Source: Papillibacter cinnamivorans DSM 12816
GTDB lineage: Bacteria; Bacillota; Clostridia; Oscillospirales; Oscillospiraceae
Length of the DNA stretch: 64,000 nucleotides
Reading direction: 5' to 3'
NCBI RefSeq assembly: GCF_900176335.1
Contig: NZ_FWXW01000002.1
Span: forward strand, 310,001 to 374,000
The notes under the pieces are model-generated. The model was given only the letters and a program-made list of their open reading frames with translations, had not been told where the DNA came from and did no database searches. Both the position numbers and the translations under genes were made by a program. Numbering within the stretch: the stretch's first letter is position 1; each line of letters opens with the position of its first letter. Positions 11,577-63,393 of this stretch are shown in pieces.

Positions 11577-12170
11577 GTGAAAACCGTCGTACTTTCCGGG
11601 GAAAAGGAGCTGCGGATCTTTTCTCTGCCCCTGCGGCAGCGCATTTTGCGGGAGATGAGCAGGCTGGGGACCCCGGTTACCGCGAAGGAAATCGCCGACC
11701 GGCTGGGCATCACGCCCTCCTCCGCCCAGCACCATATGACGAAGCTCGCTTCCATCGGGCTTCTGGAACAGGACCACACTGAGCTGATCCACGGCATTCA
11801 GGCAAAATTCATGCGCCTCACAAATGTCACCGTAAGCATCGGCCAGCAGTATGCCGACGATCTCTCCTCTTCCCGGGATGCCGTAATGCGCAGGCTTCTC
11901 CTGGACGCTTACGACGGATACCTGAAAGCGGTGGAAAAAGCCCGCGCGCGGGGCATTTCGGAACAACCCGGCGCCGAAAAATATGCCGACGTTATGTCGT
12001 CCGTCGTCCACCTCACCGACGAGCAGGCAAACTCTCTCCGCGATTTGGTTTCCGATTATCTGAAAAACTGCGGTCGGGCGGGAGAGAACACCCACCCTTG
12101 GGAGGCGGCTTTCCTGTTCTACCGTATGGATCTCGTGGAAAGCGCGGGCGAAGGACAGGAAAATAAATGA
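11577..12170 (+). CDS. Winged-helix (ArsR/HTH_20-like) transcriptional regulator
   Basis: A 197-aa protein with an N-terminal winged helix, roughly residues 10-80: LPLRQRILREMSRL, TAKEIADRLGITPSSAQHHM as the recognition helix region, and KLASIGLLEQ. The remainder is helical and may sense a ligand. It starts at GTG 11577 with AAGGAG upstream. The stop overlaps the ATG of the MFS transporter (ATGA), so the two are co-translated. The likely job is control of that transporter. The inducer is unknown. Confidence 0.85.
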   Translation: MKTVVLSGEKELRIFSLPLRQRILREMSRLGTPVTAKEIADRLGITPSSAQHHMTKLASIGLLEQDHTELIHGIQAKFMRLTNVTVSIGQQYADDLSSSRDAVMRRLLLDAYDGYLKAVEKARARGISEQPGAEKYADVMSSVVHLTDEQANSLRDLVSDYLKNCGRAGENTHPWEAAFLFYRMDLVESAGEGQENK

Positions 12171-54299: not shown

Positions 54300-54311
54300 G
54301 AGGTGCCCCAA

Positions 54312-55700
54312 ATGGATTCTTTCGACCTGATCGTGGTGGGCGCGGGCCCGGGAGGGCTCGCCGCCGCCGTCCGCGCCGCCCGTCTGGGCATGAAAACCGC
54401 CCTGGTGGAATCCCGGGAGCTGGGAGGCACCTGCTTAAACCGCGGGTGCGTTCCCACCAAGGCCCTCCTGCGCAGCGCGGAGATCCTCCGGGGCGCCCGG
54501 GAGCTGGGGCTATCCGTTCCCGGTCCGGAAGAACTGGATTTCGGCGCCCTCCGCGCAAAAAAAGACGAGGCCGTGGAGCGCCTTCGCGCCGGGACGGAAG
54601 CCCTGGTGAAATCCTGGAAAATCTCCCTCTTTCGCGCCGAGGCCCGGGTGCTGGGCTCCGGCCGGGTGTCCGCGGGTGAGCTGCTGCTTACCGGGAAGCG
54701 CATTCTGGTTTCCCCCGGAGGACGGCCCGCGCTGCCTCCCATTCCCGGCATAAAGCTGCCCGGCGTCTATACCAGCGACGGGCTGCTGGAATCCGGCTCG
54801 CCGCTCTTTCAGAGCCTCGTGATCCTGGGCGGCGGGGTGGTGGGAGCGGAAATGGCGAGCCTTTATGCCGCCCTGGGCTGCCGCGTCACTCTCCTGGAGC
54901 TCACGGACAGACTGGTGCCCTCCATGGACCGGGAGCTTTCCCAGAGCCTGGCCCAGCTTCTGAAAAAGCAGGGGGTACAGATAATCCTCTCAGCCAAAGT
55001 GTCGGAAATCCGGAAGTCGGATGGCGGCCTTGCCTGCGTGTATGCCGCAGGGGAGCGGGAAGGTCTCGCGGAGGGTTCCGCCGTCCTCGTGGCCGCGGGT
55101 CGAAGGCCCGCTCTGGATCGCCTTTTCGATCCCGGTTTGGAGATAAAAACCGAGAAGGGCTATATTGCGGTAAACGGGGACTTCGAGACCTCGGTTCCCG
55201 GCGTCTTCGCCGTGGGGGACGCCGTGGGGGGCATGCAGCTGGCTCATAAGGCCGAAGCGGAGGGCGTCTTCTCCGTGGAGCGCATGGCGGGCCTTGCACC
55301 GGAGGCCGATCTTTCCCTGATTCCCTCCTGCGTCTATACCGAACCGGAGCTTGCCTCCGTGGGGCTGACGCCGGACGAAGCCAAACTCCGGGGAATCCCG
55401 GTGAAAACAGGAAAAAGCCTCATGACCAGTAACGCCCGGAACGTCATCGAGGGCGGCCAGCGGGGCTTTGTGCGCCTTGTCTTCCATGGGGAGACCGAGG
55501 TTTTGCTGGGGGCCCAGCTTCTCTGTCCCAAGGCCTCCGAGCTCATCGGCGGCCTGACCGCGGCCGCCGCCGCGAAGATGACGCGCACGCAGCTTCTGAA
55601 AGGTGTCCGCCCCCACCCCTCTTTCTCCGAGGGGATCTTCGAGGCCCTGGCAGCGGTGGACGGCCGCTCGGTTCACACCTCTCCCGGCCTGGGGCGCTGA
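54312..55700 (+). CDS. lpdA: Dihydrolipoamide dehydrogenase (L protein)
   Basis: A 462-aa FAD enzyme that reoxidises dihydrolipoyl-GcvH with NAD. ATG 54312 is preferred over GTG 54303 because AGGAGG ends eight bases upstream. The FAD motif is LIVVGAGPGGLAAAVRAARL, the redox disulfide GGTCLNRGCVPTKALL (C-x4-C), the NAD motif VILGGGVVGAEMASLYAALG and the C-terminal active site HPSFSEGIFEAL. It is the last gene of the operon. Confidence 0.96.
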   Translation: MDSFDLIVVGAGPGGLAAAVRAARLGMKTALVESRELGGTCLNRGCVPTKALLRSAEILRGARELGLSVPGPEELDFGALRAKKDEAVERLRAGTEALVKSWKISLFRAEARVLGSGRVSAGELLLTGKRILVSPGGRPALPPIPGIKLPGVYTSDGLLESGSPLFQSLVILGGGVVGAEMASLYAALGCRVTLLELTDRLVPSMDRELSQSLAQLLKKQGVQIILSAKVSEIRKSDGGLACVYAAGEREGLAEGSAVLVAAGRRPALDRLFDPGLEIKTEKGYIAVNGDFETSVPGVFAVGDAVGGMQLAHKAEAEGVFSVERMAGLAPEADLSLIPSCVYTEPELASVGLTPDEAKLRGIPVKTGKSLMTSNARNVIEGGQRGFVRLVFHGETEVLLGAQLLCPKASELIGGLTAAAAAKMTRTQLLKGVRPHPSFSEGIFEALAAVDGRSVHTSPGLGR

Positions 55701-55782: not shown

Positions 55783-55845
55783 CTGCTCGGCGCGGTTTCT
55801 ATTTGGGACAGGTCCGGCATATAGTTTCCCAAGGGGGGATTTGCC

Positions 55846-56028
55846 TTGGAAATCGATCGCCCGGGGCTGGAGCGGGTCAAGCGTGAATGGATGCTCTCGG
55901 CCCTGAAAAAGCTCCTGGAGGAACAAATCGTCACGGAAGAAGCGTACCGCCGGACAAGGTCCGCGCTTTTAAAAGAGCGCCCGCCCCATGCCGGCGCCGC
56001 CGGAAAATCTGATACCGGGAGGGGATAG
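55846..56028 (+). CDS. Small SHOCT-like protein upstream of the recombinase
   Basis: A 60-aa protein starting at TTG 55846, with AAGGGGGG seven bases upstream. Residues 17-44 (LSALKKLLEEQIVTEEAYRR TRSALLKE) look like a SHOCT-type short helical hairpin, often found next to recombinases in Clostridia. It ends eight bases before the recombinase start, so the two are one unit. Confidence 0.7.
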   Translation: MEIDRPGLERVKREWMLSALKKLLEEQIVTEEAYRRTRSALLKERPPHAGAAGKSDTGRG

Positions 56029-56036
56029 CGCAAAAC

Positions 56037-57665
56037 ATGGATCTCTACCGTCTGAAACAGGAACTGGAGGCAGGCAGGACGATTTACGACCTGCCCCTGC
56101 GCGTGTCCTATTACGCCAGGGTCTCCACCGAGAAGGACGAGCAGCTTCACTCTCTCAAAGCCCAGGTGGAATATTTCTCCGGCTTCATCCGGAGAAATCC
56201 CAACTGGGTCCTGGTGGGCGGCTACGTGGACGAAGGGCTCAGCGGCACCAGCGTTATAAAGCGGGAAAATTTCCTGCGGATGCTGGAGGACGCCCGCCTG
56301 GGCCGGTTTGACTTTCTGGTCACAAAAGAAATCTCCCGCTTTTCCCGCAGCACCCTGGACAGCATCCGGTACACCCGGGAGCTCCTGGGCTGCGGAGTGG
56401 GAGTCCTCTTTCAGTCGGACAACATCAACACCCTGGCCCCCGACGCGGAGCTCCGCCTGGCCATCCTCTCCAGCATTGCCCAGGACGAAGTGCGCAAAAT
56501 CTCCGAGCGGGTCACCTTCGGCTTCCGCCGGGCGGTGGAACGGGGCGTGGTCCTGGGAAACGGCAGCATCTGGGGCTACCGGAAGGAAGACGGCCGGCTC
56601 ATCGTGAAAGAGGACGAGGCGGTTCTGGTGCGGGAAATCTTCGAGCTCTATGCCGACCGGGGGATGAGTATCCGGGGCGTCTGCGCCCATCTGTCACAGC
56701 GGGGCCTGAAAAACTCCCGGGGAGGGGACTTTTCCTTCAGCACCATCCGCGGGATTCTTTCAAATCCCAAATACAAAGGCTACTACTGCGGCGGAAAATC
56801 CCGCAAGCTGGACTACAGGGAGGCCGCCCGCGCCCGCCTGGACCCCTCGGAGTGGGTCCTGTATAAGGACGAGGATACCGTGCCCCCCATCGTCTCCGAG
56901 GAGCTCTGGGACCGCGCGGGCCGCATGCTGGACGCCCGGGGCGGGAAAGGGAAGGGGAGCGCCCCCTGCCGCAGCCTTTACCCCTACAGCGGCAAGCTCT
57001 TTTGCTCGGTTCACGGCGCGCCCTTCTACCGCGCGGCCTACCGCGGTGCCGGCGGGCTCCGGGAGGTCTGGCAGTGCAGGGAATACGCCTCCGGGGGAAG
57101 GGCCGCCTGCTCCGTTCCCGTGGTATATACCGAGGAGCTGGATAGGCTTCTCCGGGAAGCCCTGGAGCTGGCGGGCGTCCGCCGGGAAGAGCTGGCCCGG
57201 GCTCTCGCGGACCTTCTTTCGGAACCCGCGGTCTCTCCCGTCCGGGAAAAGGAGCGCTCGTCCCTTCTCCGGGAGCGCGGCCGTTTGAGCGCCCGGAAGG
57301 ACCGTCTTTTGGACCTCTGCGTCCGGGGCTCCCTTTCGGAGGAGGAGTTCCGGGAGCGGAACGAGGGCTTCAACCGGGAGCTGGAAAGCCTCGCCGCCCG
57401 CCTGGAGGCCCTGGAGTCCTCCGTCCCGGAGGAAAAGCCACTTTCCGTGGAAACCCTGCTATCCGCCGCCGCGGCCGCCCTGGAGCTTTCCGGAGGCTTT
57501 GACAGGGCCCTTGCGGACACGCTCCTGGACAGGGCGGAAGTTTCGGCGGGGGAGGGGGGCGCGGTGCTCGTCACGGCGAAGCTCCGATTCCTGAAGGAAC
57601 CCCTGTCCTTTGTAATACGGCGCTGCCGGGGCAAGGCTTCCGTCTGCTCCGTGCAATACATATGA
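56037..57665 (+). CDS. Large serine recombinase ending inside spoIVA
   Basis: A 542-aa large serine recombinase. The resolvase domain (about 20-165) has the nucleophile Ser30 in YYARVSTEKDEQ, with KEISRFSRSTLDSIRYTREL and SSIAQDEVRKISERVTFGFR. A recombinase domain (about 180-300) and a zinc-ribbon region (KLFCSVHGAPFYR, WQCREYASGGRAACSVPVVY) follow. A coiled coil lies at about 400-465 (KERSSLLRERGRLSARKDRL). Its stop overlaps the ATG that opens the spoIVA 3' fragment. Size and domain order match SpoIVCA-type recombinases that excise the skin element from sigK. Base composition is like the host's, so it is not a very recent arrival. Confidence 0.93.
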   Translation: MDLYRLKQELEAGRTIYDLPLRVSYYARVSTEKDEQLHSLKAQVEYFSGFIRRNPNWVLVGGYVDEGLSGTSVIKRENFLRMLEDARLGRFDFLVTKEISRFSRSTLDSIRYTRELLGCGVGVLFQSDNINTLAPDAELRLAILSSIAQDEVRKISERVTFGFRRAVERGVVLGNGSIWGYRKEDGRLIVKEDEAVLVREIFELYADRGMSIRGVCAHLSQRGLKNSRGGDFSFSTIRGILSNPKYKGYYCGGKSRKLDYREAARARLDPSEWVLYKDEDTVPPIVSEELWDRAGRMLDARGGKGKGSAPCRSLYPYSGKLFCSVHGAPFYRAAYRGAGGLREVWQCREYASGGRAACSVPVVYTEELDRLLREALELAGVRREELARALADLLSEPAVSPVREKERSSLLRERGRLSARKDRLLDLCVRGSLSEEEFRERNEGFNRELESLAARLEALESSVPEEKPLSVETLLSAAAAALELSGGFDRALADTLLDRAEVSAGEGGAVLVTAKLRFLKEPLSFVIRRCRGKASVCSVQYI

Positions 57666-57937
57666 TCCGCGCCGATATCAAGACGGAGGTATCTCCCATC
57701 GTGGGCAGCGAAAAGCAGTCCGAAGATTTGATCAATTATCTCCTCCAGGAGTTTGAGGGAGACACCAGCAAGATCTGGAAGTCCAACATCTTCGGCAAAT
57801 CCTTCCACGAGCTGGTGAGCGAGGACCTCCATGCCAAGCTTAAGCGCATGCCCGAGGATGCCCGGGGCAAGCTCCGGGAGACCCTCCAGCGCATTATCAA
57901 CGAAGGCAGCGGCGGCCTCATCTGCATTATCCTGTAA
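57662..57937 (+). CDS. spoIVA: SpoIVA C-terminal fragment (interrupted stage IV sporulation gene)
   Basis: The 91 residues from MIRADIKTEVSPIVGSEKQS through LQEFEGDTSKIWKSNIFGKS to INEGSGGLICIIL match the C-terminus of SpoIVA, the ATPase that builds the basal layer of the spore coat. Normal SpoIVA is about 490 aa; the P-loop ATPase and middle domains are missing. Upstream, the same frame reads Ile-His-Met at 57656-57664, as in family members (IHMIRADI), so the breakpoint lies within the last codons of the recombinase gene. No ribosome binding site precedes the ATG. A strong terminator follows, as for a genuine gene end. Confidence 0.9.
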   Translation: MIRADIKTEVSPIVGSEKQSEDLINYLLQEFEGDTSKIWKSNIFGKSFHELVSEDLHAKLKRMPEDARGKLRETLQRIINEGSGGLICIIL

Positions 57938-59651: not shown

Positions 59652-60305
59652 CTATATCCCCGCAAAATGCCTCAGTTCCTCCCGTTTGAGGATCCGTATC
59701 TTCCGGTACCCCGTATCGATCCAGCCCAGGCGTTCGAACTCCCCCAGCACCCGGCTCACCGTCACCCGGCTCACCCCGGCGGAGGAGCCCAGCTCCTCGT
59801 GGGTGCAGAAGATGTCCTCGTCCCTCTCCTGGAGGTTAACAAGCAGCCGCGCGATCCGCCGGTCGGCCTGGAGGAAGGTCATGTTGTCCACCTGGGCCGA
59901 GAGCATCCGTACCGTCCGTGCCAGGTACCGGAGCATGGAAAGGGCCAGAGAGGGATCCTGGGCAAACTGCTCGGCCACCACCTCCCGCGAGATGGAGACG
60001 ATCCGGGAGCGCGTCAGGGCTCTTGCCGAGGAGACCCGGGGCATCCCGTCGAAAAACGACGCCTCTCCGAAAATGTGCCCTGCCTGGTAGACCGTGAGGA
60101 TCTTTTCCTCCCCCTCGCCGGAGCTGATGAAGGTCTTGACCCGGCCTTCCGTGAGATAATAGAACCGTTCCGCCGTCTCCCCCTGCCAGTAGATCATCCG
60201 GTCCTTTTCATAGACCCGGGGCGGCAGGGCGGAGGCAAACCTATGCCACACGTCGGGAGCAAGCCCCAGCTCCCGGGTGTTGAAATACTCGTATCGGTAC
60301 TGCAT
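59652..60305 (-). CDS. Crp/Fnr-family transcriptional regulator
   Basis: A 217-aa regulator. The cyclic-nucleotide-binding-fold domain (about 20-140) has IYWQGETAERFYYLTEGRVK and GHIFGEASFFDGMPRVSSAR. The C-terminal HTH_Crp is CTHEELGSSAGVSRVTVSRV followed by LGEFERLGWID. No N-terminal cysteine cluster for an Fe-S centre is seen, so it is not an oxygen-sensing FNR. The start at 60305 follows AAAGGAGG. It is divergent from leuC. Confidence 0.92.
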   Translation of the reverse strand: MQYRYEYFNTRELGLAPDVWHRFASALPPRVYEKDRMIYWQGETAERFYYLTEGRVKTFISSGEGEEKILTVYQAGHIFGEASFFDGMPRVSSARALTRSRIVSISREVVAEQFAQDPSLALSMLRYLARTVRMLSAQVDNMTFLQADRRIARLLVNLQERDEDIFCTHEELGSSAGVSRVTVSRVLGEFERLGWIDTGYRKIRILKREELRHFAGI

Positions 60306-60356
60306 GCTTCCTCCTTTCCGGTCCGGATAATCCGTTCCGGAAATCTTCTTGGTAAG

Positions 60357-60386
60357 ATTGTATCACAGTTTACATTCTTGCGGCAA
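60357..60386 (-). promoter_or_regulatory. Promoter of the Crp-family gene
   Basis: On the minus strand, TTGCCG and TACAAT with an 18-base spacer. Confidence 0.6.
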
Positions 60387-60492
60387 GAGTCCTTTTATAC
60401 TGGAACTATCCTACCACCCCCATTATCAGGATTTTATCCCGGCTCCGGCAGGGCAGGGGAGGCGGACACACGAGTTTCGGAGCGTCCCCGCG

Positions 60493-60534
60493 TTGCAAAC
60501 AAAAACGGCCGGTGCTATAATACTGACACCGGCC
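60493..60534 (+). promoter_or_regulatory. Promoter and inverted repeat of the leu operon
   Basis: TTGCAA (60493-60498) and TATAAT (60516-60521) have a 17-base spacer. An inverted repeat GGCCGGTG-N12-CACCGGCC (60507-60534) straddles the -10 and the start site, a likely repressor site. Confidence 0.75.
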
Positions 60535-60552
60535 TGTAAAGGAGGAAAAGCC

Positions 60553-61812
60553 ATGGCAATGACGATGACCCAGAAAATCCTGGCCAAACACGCGGGCCTT
60601 CCCGAGGTGAAGGCCGGACAGCTCATCGAGGCGAAGCTGGACCTGGTCATGGGAAACGACATCACCGCCCCCGTGGCCATCAAGGAATTTGAAAAGGCGG
60701 GCTTTACCCGTGTCTTCGACAAGGACCGGGTCTGCATCGTCCTGGACCACTTCACCCCCAACAAGGACATCAAGGCCGCCCAGCAGAGCAGCGAGTCCCG
60801 CGCTTTTGCAAAAAAGCACGGCCTCACCAACTTTTTCGACGTGGGGAACATGGGTATCGAGCACGCCCTGCTTCCCGAAAAGGGTCTGGTGGCACCCGGC
60901 GAGACGGTCATCGGGGCCGACTCCCATACCTGCACCTACGGGGCCCTGGGCGCTTTTTCCACCGGCGTGGGCAGTACCGACATGGCGGCCGGCATGGCGG
61001 CCGGCGTTGCCTGGTTCAAGGTACCCTCCGCCATCCGCTTCAACCTGATTGGCAAACTGCGTCCCTGGGTGGGCGGCAAGGACGTCATCCTCCACATCAT
61101 CGGCAGAATCGGAGTGGACGGCGCTCTTTATAAATCCATGGAGTTTACCGGCCCCGGAGTTAAGGAGCTCACCATGGACGACCGGTTCACCATCGCCAAC
61201 ATGGCCATCGAGGCGGGGGCCAAAAACGGGATCTTCCCCGTGGACCAGGCCGTGCGGGACTATGTGAAAGACAGGGTCACCCGCCCCTGGGAGGCCTTCG
61301 AGGCCGACCCCGACGCGGAATACGACGAGGAGATCACCATCGACCTGTCCGAGATCGAACCCACGGTTTCACTGCCCCATCTGCCCTCCAACGCCCAGAA
61401 GGTCAGCCAGGTCCGCGGCCTTAAGATCGACCAGAGCGTCATCGGCTCCTGCACCAACGGGCGTCTGGGCGACCTGCGTATCGCCGCTTCCATCCTGAAG
61501 GGCCGCAAGGTGGCCCCCGGAGTCAGATGCATCGTCATCCCCGCCACCCAGCAGGTCTATCTGGACGCCCTGGCGGAAGGGCTCATCGAGATCTTCGTGA
61601 AAGCCGGCTGCGCCGTGAGCACCCCCACCTGCGGGCCCTGCATCGGCGGCCACATGGGCGTCCTCTACAAGGGCGAGCGGGCCGTAGCCACCACCAACCG
61701 CAATTTTGTCGGCCGCATGGGACATACGGAATCTGAAATTATTCTGGCAAGCCCGGCGGTCGCTGCGGCTTCCGCCGTGGCGGGGGTCGTTGCCTCCCCC
61801 GACGAACTGTGA
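60553..61812 (+). CDS. leuC: 3-isopropylmalate dehydratase large subunit
   Basis: A 419-aa aconitase-family large subunit, the short type shared with homoaconitase and related to archaeal LeuC. ATG 60553 follows GGAGG. The [4Fe-4S] ligands are in [15 protein letters not shown] and [36 protein letters not shown] is the substrate-binding signature. It is followed by leuD and leuB, so leucine synthesis is the natural assignment; leuA is not in the window. Confidence 0.93.
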
Positions 61813-61828
61813 GGAGGGAGAAAAGAAT

Positions 61829-62320
61829 ATGAAAACCACCGGAACCGTTTTCAGATACGGAGACAACGTGGATACCGACGTCATCATCCCCGCGAGGTAC
61901 TTGAACACCTCCGACCCCGCGGAGTTGGCTAAGCACTGCATGGAGGATATCGACGCCTCCTTTGTTGGCAAGGTACAAAAGAACGACCTGATCGTGGCCG
62001 GAGCCAATTTCGGCTGCGGCTCCTCCCGGGAACACGCGCCCATCGCCATCCGGGCCTGCGGCGTCTCCTGCGTCATCGCGGGCAGCTTTGCCCGGATCTT
62101 CTACAGAAACGCCATCAACATCGGCCTTCCCATCATGGAATCCCCCGAGGCGGCAGCGGACATTAAACCCGGGGATCAGGTGAGCGTGGACTTCGATACC
62201 GGACTCATTGTAAACGAGACCACGGGCCGCTCCTTTCAGTCGGCCCCCTTCCCGGAATTCGTGACCAATATCATCCGCGCCGGCGGCCTTCTCAATTCTC
62301 TCAAGGAAAGGGGCGTCTGA
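61829..62320 (+). CDS. leuD: 3-isopropylmalate dehydratase small subunit
   Basis: A 163-aa small subunit. It opens [20 protein letters not shown] and has the conserved [20 protein letters not shown] loop. GGAGGGAG lies upstream of ATG 61829. It pairs with LeuC, 16 bases upstream. Confidence 0.95.
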
Positions 62321-62322
62321 GG

Positions 62323-63393
62323 TTGAACTTCAAGATTGCTCTCATCCGGGGCGACGGCATCGGCCCCGAGGTGGTGGAAGAGGCCGTGGGCGTCCTGGAG
62401 ACCGTGGGAGCCCGCTTCGGCCACAGCTACGAATGGATCGACGTCCTCATGGGCGGCTGCGCTTACGACGCAAAGGGAACGCCCTATCCCGAGGGGACAA
62501 AGGAGGCCTGTCAGCGGGCCGACGCCGTTTTGCTGGGCGCCGTGGGCGGGCCCAAATGGGACAATCTGCCTCCCGCTCTCCGTCCGGAAAAGGCACTTTT
62601 GGCCATCCGTTCCGACCTGGGGCTTTACGCAAACCTCCGCCCGGCGGCCCTCCGCCCGGCTCTGAAGGCCGCCTGCCCTCTGAGGAGCGATATAGCGGAT
62701 AAGGGCTTCGATCTCATGCTCTTGAGGGAGCTCACCGGGGGAATCTACTTCGGAGAGCGGAAACGGTATCAGACCGAGGACAGGGGAGAGGAAGCCTCCG
62801 ATCTCATGAAGTACAGCGAGATGGAGATCGAGCGGATCGGCCGCCGCGCCTTCGAGCTGGCCCGCCTGCGCCGGAAAAAGGTCGTGAGCGTGGACAAGGC
62901 AAACGTCCTGGAAACCTCCCGCCTCTGGCGTGCCGTCATGCACCGGCTGGCCGCGGAGTACCCCGACGTGGCCTATTCCGACATGCTGGTGGACAACTGC
63001 GCCATGCAGCTGGTGCGGGACCCCTCCTTCTTCGACGTCCTGGTGACCGAGAACATGTTCGGGGACATCCTATCGGACGAAGCCAGCATGCTCACCGGCT
63101 CCATCGGCCTTCTGCCGTCGGCCTCCATAGGGGACAGGACCCCCGGCCTTTACGAGCCCATCCACGGCTCCGCCCCCGACATAGCCGGTCAGGACAAGGC
63201 AAATCCCGTGGCCGCCATCCTGTCCGCTGCCATGATGTTCCGCTATTCCTTCCGTCTCGCCGGGGAAGCCGCCGCCATTGAAAAGGCGGTGGATCTTGCC
63301 CTCTCTTCCGGCTGCCGGACCGCCGACATGGCGGGCTCCGGCGCTCCCCTGGGTACCCGGGAGATGGGAAAAATCATCCGAGGCAATATCTGA
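62323..63393 (+). CDS. leuB: 3-isopropylmalate dehydrogenase
   Basis: A 356-aa NAD-dependent enzyme that oxidatively decarboxylates 3-isopropylmalate. It starts at TTG 62323 two bases after the leuD stop, with AAGGAAAGGGG upstream. Signatures are [46 protein letters not shown] and the metal-binding [16 protein letters not shown], then [20 protein letters not shown]. Confidence 0.95.

Follow-up and report, generated by a model that had tools for sequence, protein, structure and literature searches.

The closest described counterparts of the locus considered here are the skin elements of sigK in Bacillus subtilis (spoIVCA/skr) and Clostridioides difficile (CD1231/CD1234), in which a mother-cell gene is split by an element that bears its own large serine recombinase and a short core, the B. 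subtilis element also holding a small directionality open reading frame (ORF), skr, just 5' of the recombinase (PMC6957869, PMC5025042, PMC13141910). In a 64,000-nucleotide stretch of Papillibacter cinnamivorans DSM 12816 (the window, positions 310001-374000 of contig C10 in a 2.89 Mb assembly of 20 contigs that is 99% complete) we find the 3' half of spoIVA preceded, in a comparable layout, by a large serine recombinase and a small ORF. We think it very likely, with a probability of roughly 0.86, that the element interrupting spoIVA here belongs to a widespread, skin-like family that intervenes in this gene, and that removal in the mother cell rebuilds the gene.

Interrupted genes named in the literature consulted are sigK, spsM, spoVFB, spoVR, gerE and yabG, one of the papers giving spoIVFB, probably meaning spoVFB; almost all such intervening elements are said there to sit in mother-cell genes (PMC6957869). 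The gin element of B. cereus ATCC10987 is likewise a non-phage element with serine recombinases in a mother-cell gene, and differs in having three recombinases, in its location in gerE and in being described in that source from one strain (PMC5595907). The vfbin (spoVFB), vrin (spoVR), SP-beta (spsM) and yin (yabG) elements also intervene in sporulation genes, but are described as phage or phage-like and have other targets (PMC4191935, PMC10747680). Excision also rebuilds a split gene in the fdxN element of cyanobacteria (XisF; fdxN is named in PMC6957869), which differs in interrupting a nitrogen-fixation gene in other bacteria and another programme; the XisF model matches the window recombinase with an E-value of 1.2e-21, below its cut-off. 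Unlike sigK skin, the spoIVA element targets spoIVA, uses two neighbouring sites and has a recombinase frame that overlaps or is fused to the 3' half, and the sigK-type recombinases found here form a clade separate from the spoIVA type, in a tree that does not hold SpoIVCA and CD1231 themselves. No spoIVA-intervening element was found in the literature among the matches listed, subscription papers and bioRxiv preprints being mostly outside the scope of the search; as far as searched, spoIVA as a target and the overlapping or fused recombinase are new.

The two halves of spoIVA

The features of the locus and its flanks in the window are as follows.

57659..57937, + strand: spoIVA 3' half, from His codon to stop, with an ORF from the ATG at 57662
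56037..57665, + strand: large serine recombinase, 542 residues, domains Resolvase, Recombinase and Zn_ribbon_recom
57632..57661, + strand: putative attR, with element arm 57632-57658 and, in the His codon of spoIVA (57659-57661), the probable core CA
57654-57660, + strand: shared word CAATACA, inside attR and also at the 5'-half junction
55846..56028, + strand: small ORF, 60 residues, SHOCT-like, directly 5' of the recombinase; candidate recombination directionality factor
55797..55825, + strand: predicted sigma-E-like boxes, TTCTATT, 14 nucleotides, CATATAGT
54303..55700, + strand: lpd-like gene, left of the small ORF
59652-60305, - strand: crp-like gene, right flank
to 63393, + strand: leuC-, leuD- and leuB-like genes, right flank (59652..63393 overall)

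The names lpd, crp and leuCDB, like gcv, ArnT-like and thiN-like below, are read from translations. The gcv genes named in a first-pass annotation of this DNA are present as ORFs, read by eye.

The 91 residues encoded at 57662-57934 align to positions 402-492 of the NCBIfam SpoIVA model TIGR02836 (E-value 7.9e-40) and span all 76 positions of Pfam SpoIVA_C (E-value 3.3e-37), which bears out the first-pass identification of these codons as the end of spoIVA; by itself the 3' half scores 137.2 bits, below the TIGR02836 cut-off of 459.9. The recombinase stop (57663-57665) and the fragment's ATG (57662-57664) overlap within four bases, and the SpoIVA frame read across the junction is Ala-Ile-His-Met-Ile-Arg; the overlap and the Ile-His-Met had been noted from the sequence. 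This overlap is a conserved arrangement, the same four bases being shared by the recombinase stop and the corresponding SpoIVA codon, which is not always ATG, in 22 of 37 related loci. Serine 30 of the recombinase (YYARVST), invariant in all five recombinases aligned, is presumably the catalytic serine. The catalytic domain resembles the solved conjugative-transposon recombinase 3g13 (E-value 7.2e-41), and the second-best match to the recombinase in its own genome has 34% identity. Upstream, the 60-residue ORF that the first-pass annotation called SHOCT-like has a weak SHOCT_2 match, at 16.3 bits against a cut-off of 24, but similar small ORFs precede many related recombinases.

A TIGR02836 search of the whole genome returned two pieces only, the window piece (profile positions 399-492) and C9:372059-373270 (positions 2-405), and no intact spoIVA was found at E-values up to 1 in this 99% complete assembly. 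The second piece is the lone 5' fragment ending in Ser-Ile-(His) whose existence had been anticipated: it reads ASAPSI and then departs from the SpoIVA sequence, at a junction outside the window at about C9:373256. The matching core sought with it is also present, CAATACA being common to both junctions. When the join is placed at the CA within the His codon, the sequence runs ASAPSIHMIRADIKTEVSPIVG and yields a protein of 492 residues without a stop, covering positions 2-492 of 492 of TIGR02836 with 712.9 bits.

Gene order around intact spoIVA in relatives agrees with this joining of the two fragments. In L049 the neighbours of the gene are kinase-, rsgA- and DUF3794-like on one flank and crp-, leuC- and leuB-like on the opposite flank, in L051 it has thiN- and DUF3794-like genes near it as well as crp-, leuC- and leuB-like genes, and in L053 the right set is represented by crp- and leuC-like genes only (leuD was left out of the queries). 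The left set adjoins the 5' half on C9 and the right set adjoins the 3' half in the window. The right set was not seen within the stretch fetched from the other 17 intact relatives compared.

Recurrence, target sites and attachment sites in relatives

A scan with the recombinase alignment, using one genome per species (GTDB r220), gave 531 relatives, of which the best 80 were kept, providing 79 loci. The SpoIVA C-terminal segment was present in 41 of these loci (in L161 as part of an intact gene), and when the 41 genomes behind them were searched with TIGR02836, 37 had, by our own classification, both halves broken at the expected place. The other four comprise one intact gene (G459, the only one among the 41), a 3' half only (G431), a 5' half only (G442), and a broken copy with a fused 3' half (G452); within the 37, the 5' piece is itself fragmented in G432, G445 and G464, and contig ends cut the 3' half of G457. 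With G000, G037, G191, G346, G475 and G477, 43 genomes carry both halves broken at one of two sites, carriers including Ruminiclostridium papyrosolvens, R. sufflavum and Flavonifractor isolates. Wherever relatives have both halves on one contig they lie in direct orientation (25 of 25), 3.5 kb (G440) to 119 kb (G450) apart (6.3 kb in R. papyrosolvens and 39.4 kb in R. sufflavum), in line with the skin-like geometry first suggested for the locus. When 18 elements and the two ends in the window genome are compared, most have in common the recombinase, the small ORF and the spoIVA halves; other frames listed in more than four of them look, by eye, like antisense or partial versions of these.

Among 394 sampled genomes of the order, at least six have a split gene (G000, G037, G191, G202, G346 and G419, those of G202 and G419 being incomplete), a lower bound taken from the matches listed after re-examination of 19 genomes with two, weak or no matches. 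Nine apparent splits (G052, G036, G023, G204, G399, G138, G197, G230 and G257) were set aside because their pieces are bounded by contig ends or come close to them. G292 has two adjacent, overlapping pieces of frameshift-like appearance, and G083 has several pieces. Two near-complete genomes of the same family, G374 and G008, gave no SpoIVA match, possibly through loss of sporulation or assembly gaps.

The two break sites lie about 25 bp apart in spoIVA, site 1 at the Ser-Ile-His-Met codons and site 2 at Thr-Glu-Val codons, the latter used by G037, G191, G202, G455 and G460, with a recombinase frame that continues in frame into the SpoIVA end. In a quick tree the site-2 recombinases form one clade (support 100), and most of those of site 1 belong to a 40-row set with support 95 (34 rows being site-1 and 6 labelled other), while four from Bacilli group apart. 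Four genomes have a recombinase of the 40-row set with no 3' half beside it; spoIVA is split in two of them, G477 and G475, the 3' half of G475 lying inside a 624-residue open frame as in site-2 members. Both elements occur in tandem in L116 (11600-11720) and L136 (about 11610-11720), leaving spoIVA in three pieces, in the order site-1 attR, some ten spoIVA codons, a site-2-like junction, and a second recombinase fused to the C-terminal piece.

The arms of site-1 elements, to which this test was applied, are inverted-repeat-like in 29 of 29 genomes, with a mean identity of 0.71 (lowest 0.59), shuffled arms giving 0.36; for the window genome, the identity between the arm at 57632-57658 and that at the 5' half is 0.67 (0.34 shuffled). 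Arms resemble each other more within genomes (0.708) than across them (0.633; 0 of 5000 permutations, 28 genomes, G461 left out), and share 51 departures from the consensus where 27 are expected (28 genomes). Such covariation would follow from continued use by one recombinase, with shared ancestry also contributing. Distances between recombinases and between spoIVA 5' halves are correlated (r 0.63, 0 of 2000 permutations, 29 genomes), suggesting that gene and recombinase largely descended together.

A script joined 33 of 35 pairs of halves, at a join point that we set (G436 and G464 did not fit the pattern), and all 33 joined frames are free of stops: 30 are exactly 492 residues long, two are 490 and 491, and one is cut by a contig end. 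This disfavours the dead-relic option that the first-pass annotation had left open. In the closest pair, G429 and G430, the ratio of nonsynonymous to synonymous substitution rates (dN/dS) is 0.036 in the 5' half and 0 in the 3' half, which has no amino-acid change; in the next 13 pairs it is 0-0.32 in the 3' half.

Proposed rearrangement and its alternatives

SpoIVA, an early product of the mother cell, is the ATPase upon which the coat of the spore is assembled, and in B. subtilis sigma-E drives spoIVA. In the reaction we propose, the serine recombinase would act on attL, after the 5' half, and attR, which overlaps the 3' end of the recombinase gene where the 3' half starts; strand exchange, probably at the CA dinucleotide within the His codon of Ser-Ile-His-Met, would rebuild an uninterrupted 492-codon spoIVA. 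Timing would be early in sporulation, in the mother cell and under sigma-E, while on the forespore chromosome the gene would stay split, and the arrangement would thus be inherited. Judged from the sequences, the element is probably functional as a developmental switch; its recurrence in many Clostridia gives it the look of a built-in switch, not a broken gene. If this is true, the split spoIVA would bring DNA rearrangement forward to a step before that of sigK skin, given how early SpoIVA is made. The presence of cultured strains in the family makes the proposal directly testable, and the elements offer recombinases with defined attachment sites inside coding sequence.

A small ORF lies 5' of 33 of 41 site-1 and 3 of 4 site-2 recombinases with more than 300 bases upstream available (window included), as called by a loose pattern of which some matches are doubtful by eye. 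Its putative role in directionality is suggested by the position of skr in B. subtilis skin, as given in PMC6957869. Sigma-E-like boxes, whose use as promoters is predicted, are enriched 5' of the small ORF (z 6.4, 36 loci), 5' of split spoIVA 5' halves (z 10.4, 35), and also 5' of intact spoIVA (z 3.1, 25) and at the equivalent positions of sigK-type loci (z 8.3, 10), with no enrichment at those of the sigG type (z -0.9, 6). The window boxes (55797..55825) have the best score against a sigma-E consensus in the 186 nucleotides 5' of the small ORF, and the same -10 box with the same spacing is found 5' of the spoIVA 5' half in G428, G429 and G430.

The arrangement in the window genome is itself unusual. 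The halves are found on separate large contigs (591 and 423 kb), with 218 kb of contig behind the 5' half and 367 kb before the 3' half: if the contigs follow directly, at least 586 kb separate the halves, and for contigs facing each other the outcome of recombination would be inversion of a segment. As the DNA between the halves resembles ordinary chromosome, hundreds of kilobases would be released or flipped in the reaction. The lpd-like gene adjacent to the recombinase has its best matches 0.5-1.3 Mb from spoIVA in G206, G217 and G363 (48-50% identity, possible orthologues); five of nine relatives searched gave matches, those of G014 and G030 on a contig other than spoIVA's. This points to a probable rearrangement of the chromosome at the element, or else to an assembly fault at that place. 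An assembly error, confined to this genome, would make the large separation false and the true element one of ordinary size, as the location of the lpd-like gene and the 3.5-119 kb elements of relatives would allow. We regard this as unlikely, since both junctions are deep inside their contigs and the genome has no second close recombinase copy to cause an obvious misjoin. The ends of C9 and C10 gave no join, guanine-cytosine skew (20 sampled stretches, L034 and the window) did not separate direct from inverted orientation, no transfer RNA gene was found in five stretches scanned, and only one of nine relatives had the ArnT-like gene that lies behind the 5' half, an uninformative result.

Several observations weigh against an active spoIVA switch. 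The separation of the halves in the window genome may reflect misassembly or a disabled arrangement, and its recombinase has a long branch (0.54) and odd composition in the tree. Two site-1-clade recombinases occur without a split gene, G474 having an intact spoIVA and G476 no match. Directly 5' of the recombinases sigma-E-like boxes reach a z of only 2.0 (45 loci), in a test built on a sigma-E consensus and block shuffles with some doubtful ORFs included, and the window genome's own 5' half is without a good match (score 2.0). The permutation and z tests behind the arm, correlation and box statistics ignore shared ancestry, dN/dS in the 5' half of the next 13 pairs is 0.17-0.68 (with the synonymous rate probably underestimated), and no excision, circle or rebuilt junction was seen in the DNA searched. 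There are stops in the 5' pieces of G432, the G452 copy is broken, and the 5' rows of G443 and G458 have one TGA each, that of G443 just past the junction.

Some of these points would suit a relic, in which insertion of the element into spoIVA was accompanied by loss of sporulation in the host and decay of the halves: the broken pieces in G432 and G452 and the two-contig arrangement are what such decay might leave. We nevertheless hold it to be quite improbable, as both halves are open and frame-compatible, the recombinase domains are intact, dN/dS is low in the closest pair, the arms covary, and in 37 of 41 related genomes both halves persist and an intact copy is absent. Still harder to credit is a split protein, in which two independently made polypeptides would associate while the DNA stays unrearranged, the site-2 SpoIVA end being a recombinase fusion. 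Each half does have an open frame and a possible start or fusion of its own, but the 5'-half frame runs into element codons of varying sequence and length, and the inverted arms and shared cores would have no role.

Related recombinases in other genes and replicons

Sister recombinases adjoin other genes. L146 (11617-12072), which belongs to a sister clade made up of Oscillospiraceae loci, holds a skin element: its recombinase, with a small upstream ORF, is followed by the sigK 3' part. At ten loci (L138, L141, L151, L155, L158, L160, L161, L164, L168 and L170) the gene concerned is sigG, the forespore sigma factor: none of the ten genomes has a sigG match above the curated cut-off, all ten have its last 25 or so codons inside a 564-701-residue open frame that is the recombinase, and in four (G459, G465, G466 and G467) sigG is in three pieces. 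L165 (1848-2798) has a related recombinase followed by the end of a D-Ala-D-Ala carboxypeptidase-like gene, possibly another split gene, and L166 and L167 carry the same recombinase in the tree. In L122 and L125, from metagenome-assembled genomes of Oscillospiraceae, sister recombinases point the opposite way relative to spoIVA, the recombinase end in L122 facing the 5' half. Among 20 genomes with sister recombinases (sigK-, sigG- and carboxypeptidase-type, and unassigned) 16 have a full-length spoIVA and none is split at site 1 or 2; the remaining four comprise two with no spoIVA match, one with a partial match and one with two adjacent pieces.

It is conceivable, and we offer it tentatively, that one serine recombinase lineage with its small partner gene has settled repeatedly in sporulation genes of Clostridia and related Bacilli (the two spoIVA sites, sigK, sigG and perhaps the D-Ala-D-Ala carboxypeptidase gene), that some genes would need two joining events (spoIVA or sigG in three pieces), and that in the window genome, with its halves that far apart or inverted, spore formation would require much of the mother-cell chromosome to be split or flipped. 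Three-piece genes and a split sigG, the product of which works in the forespore rather than in the dying mother cell, go against the usual pattern of mother-cell targets, and excision of a sigG element in the forespore would be inherited, unlike that of mother-cell elements.

Sporulation-gene-intervening elements commonly have phage-derived content, gin being an exception. Viral DNA yielded no spoIVA half, either in the 51 loci fetched from viral contigs or in the stretches fetched from 49 viral contigs with related recombinases. A pattern for attP matched viral contigs twice, both times without the core, and both matches were taken as chance, that in L240 lying inside a transporter-like coding sequence. 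The best recombinase match in phage records has 47.8% identity over 67% of the query, and none of 411 matching records covers 80% of it. The 91-residue segment is present in two plasmid and five 'phage' records; five of the seven were fetched and rejected, all five having both spoIVA parts together and no matching recombinase in the stretch. One record, NZ_AP023421.1 (L291), is a 504-kb sequence named as a plasmid of Pusillibacter faecalis, which looks like a piece of chromosome since it carries spoIVA, spoIIIAA-AH-like genes, rsgA and nusB.

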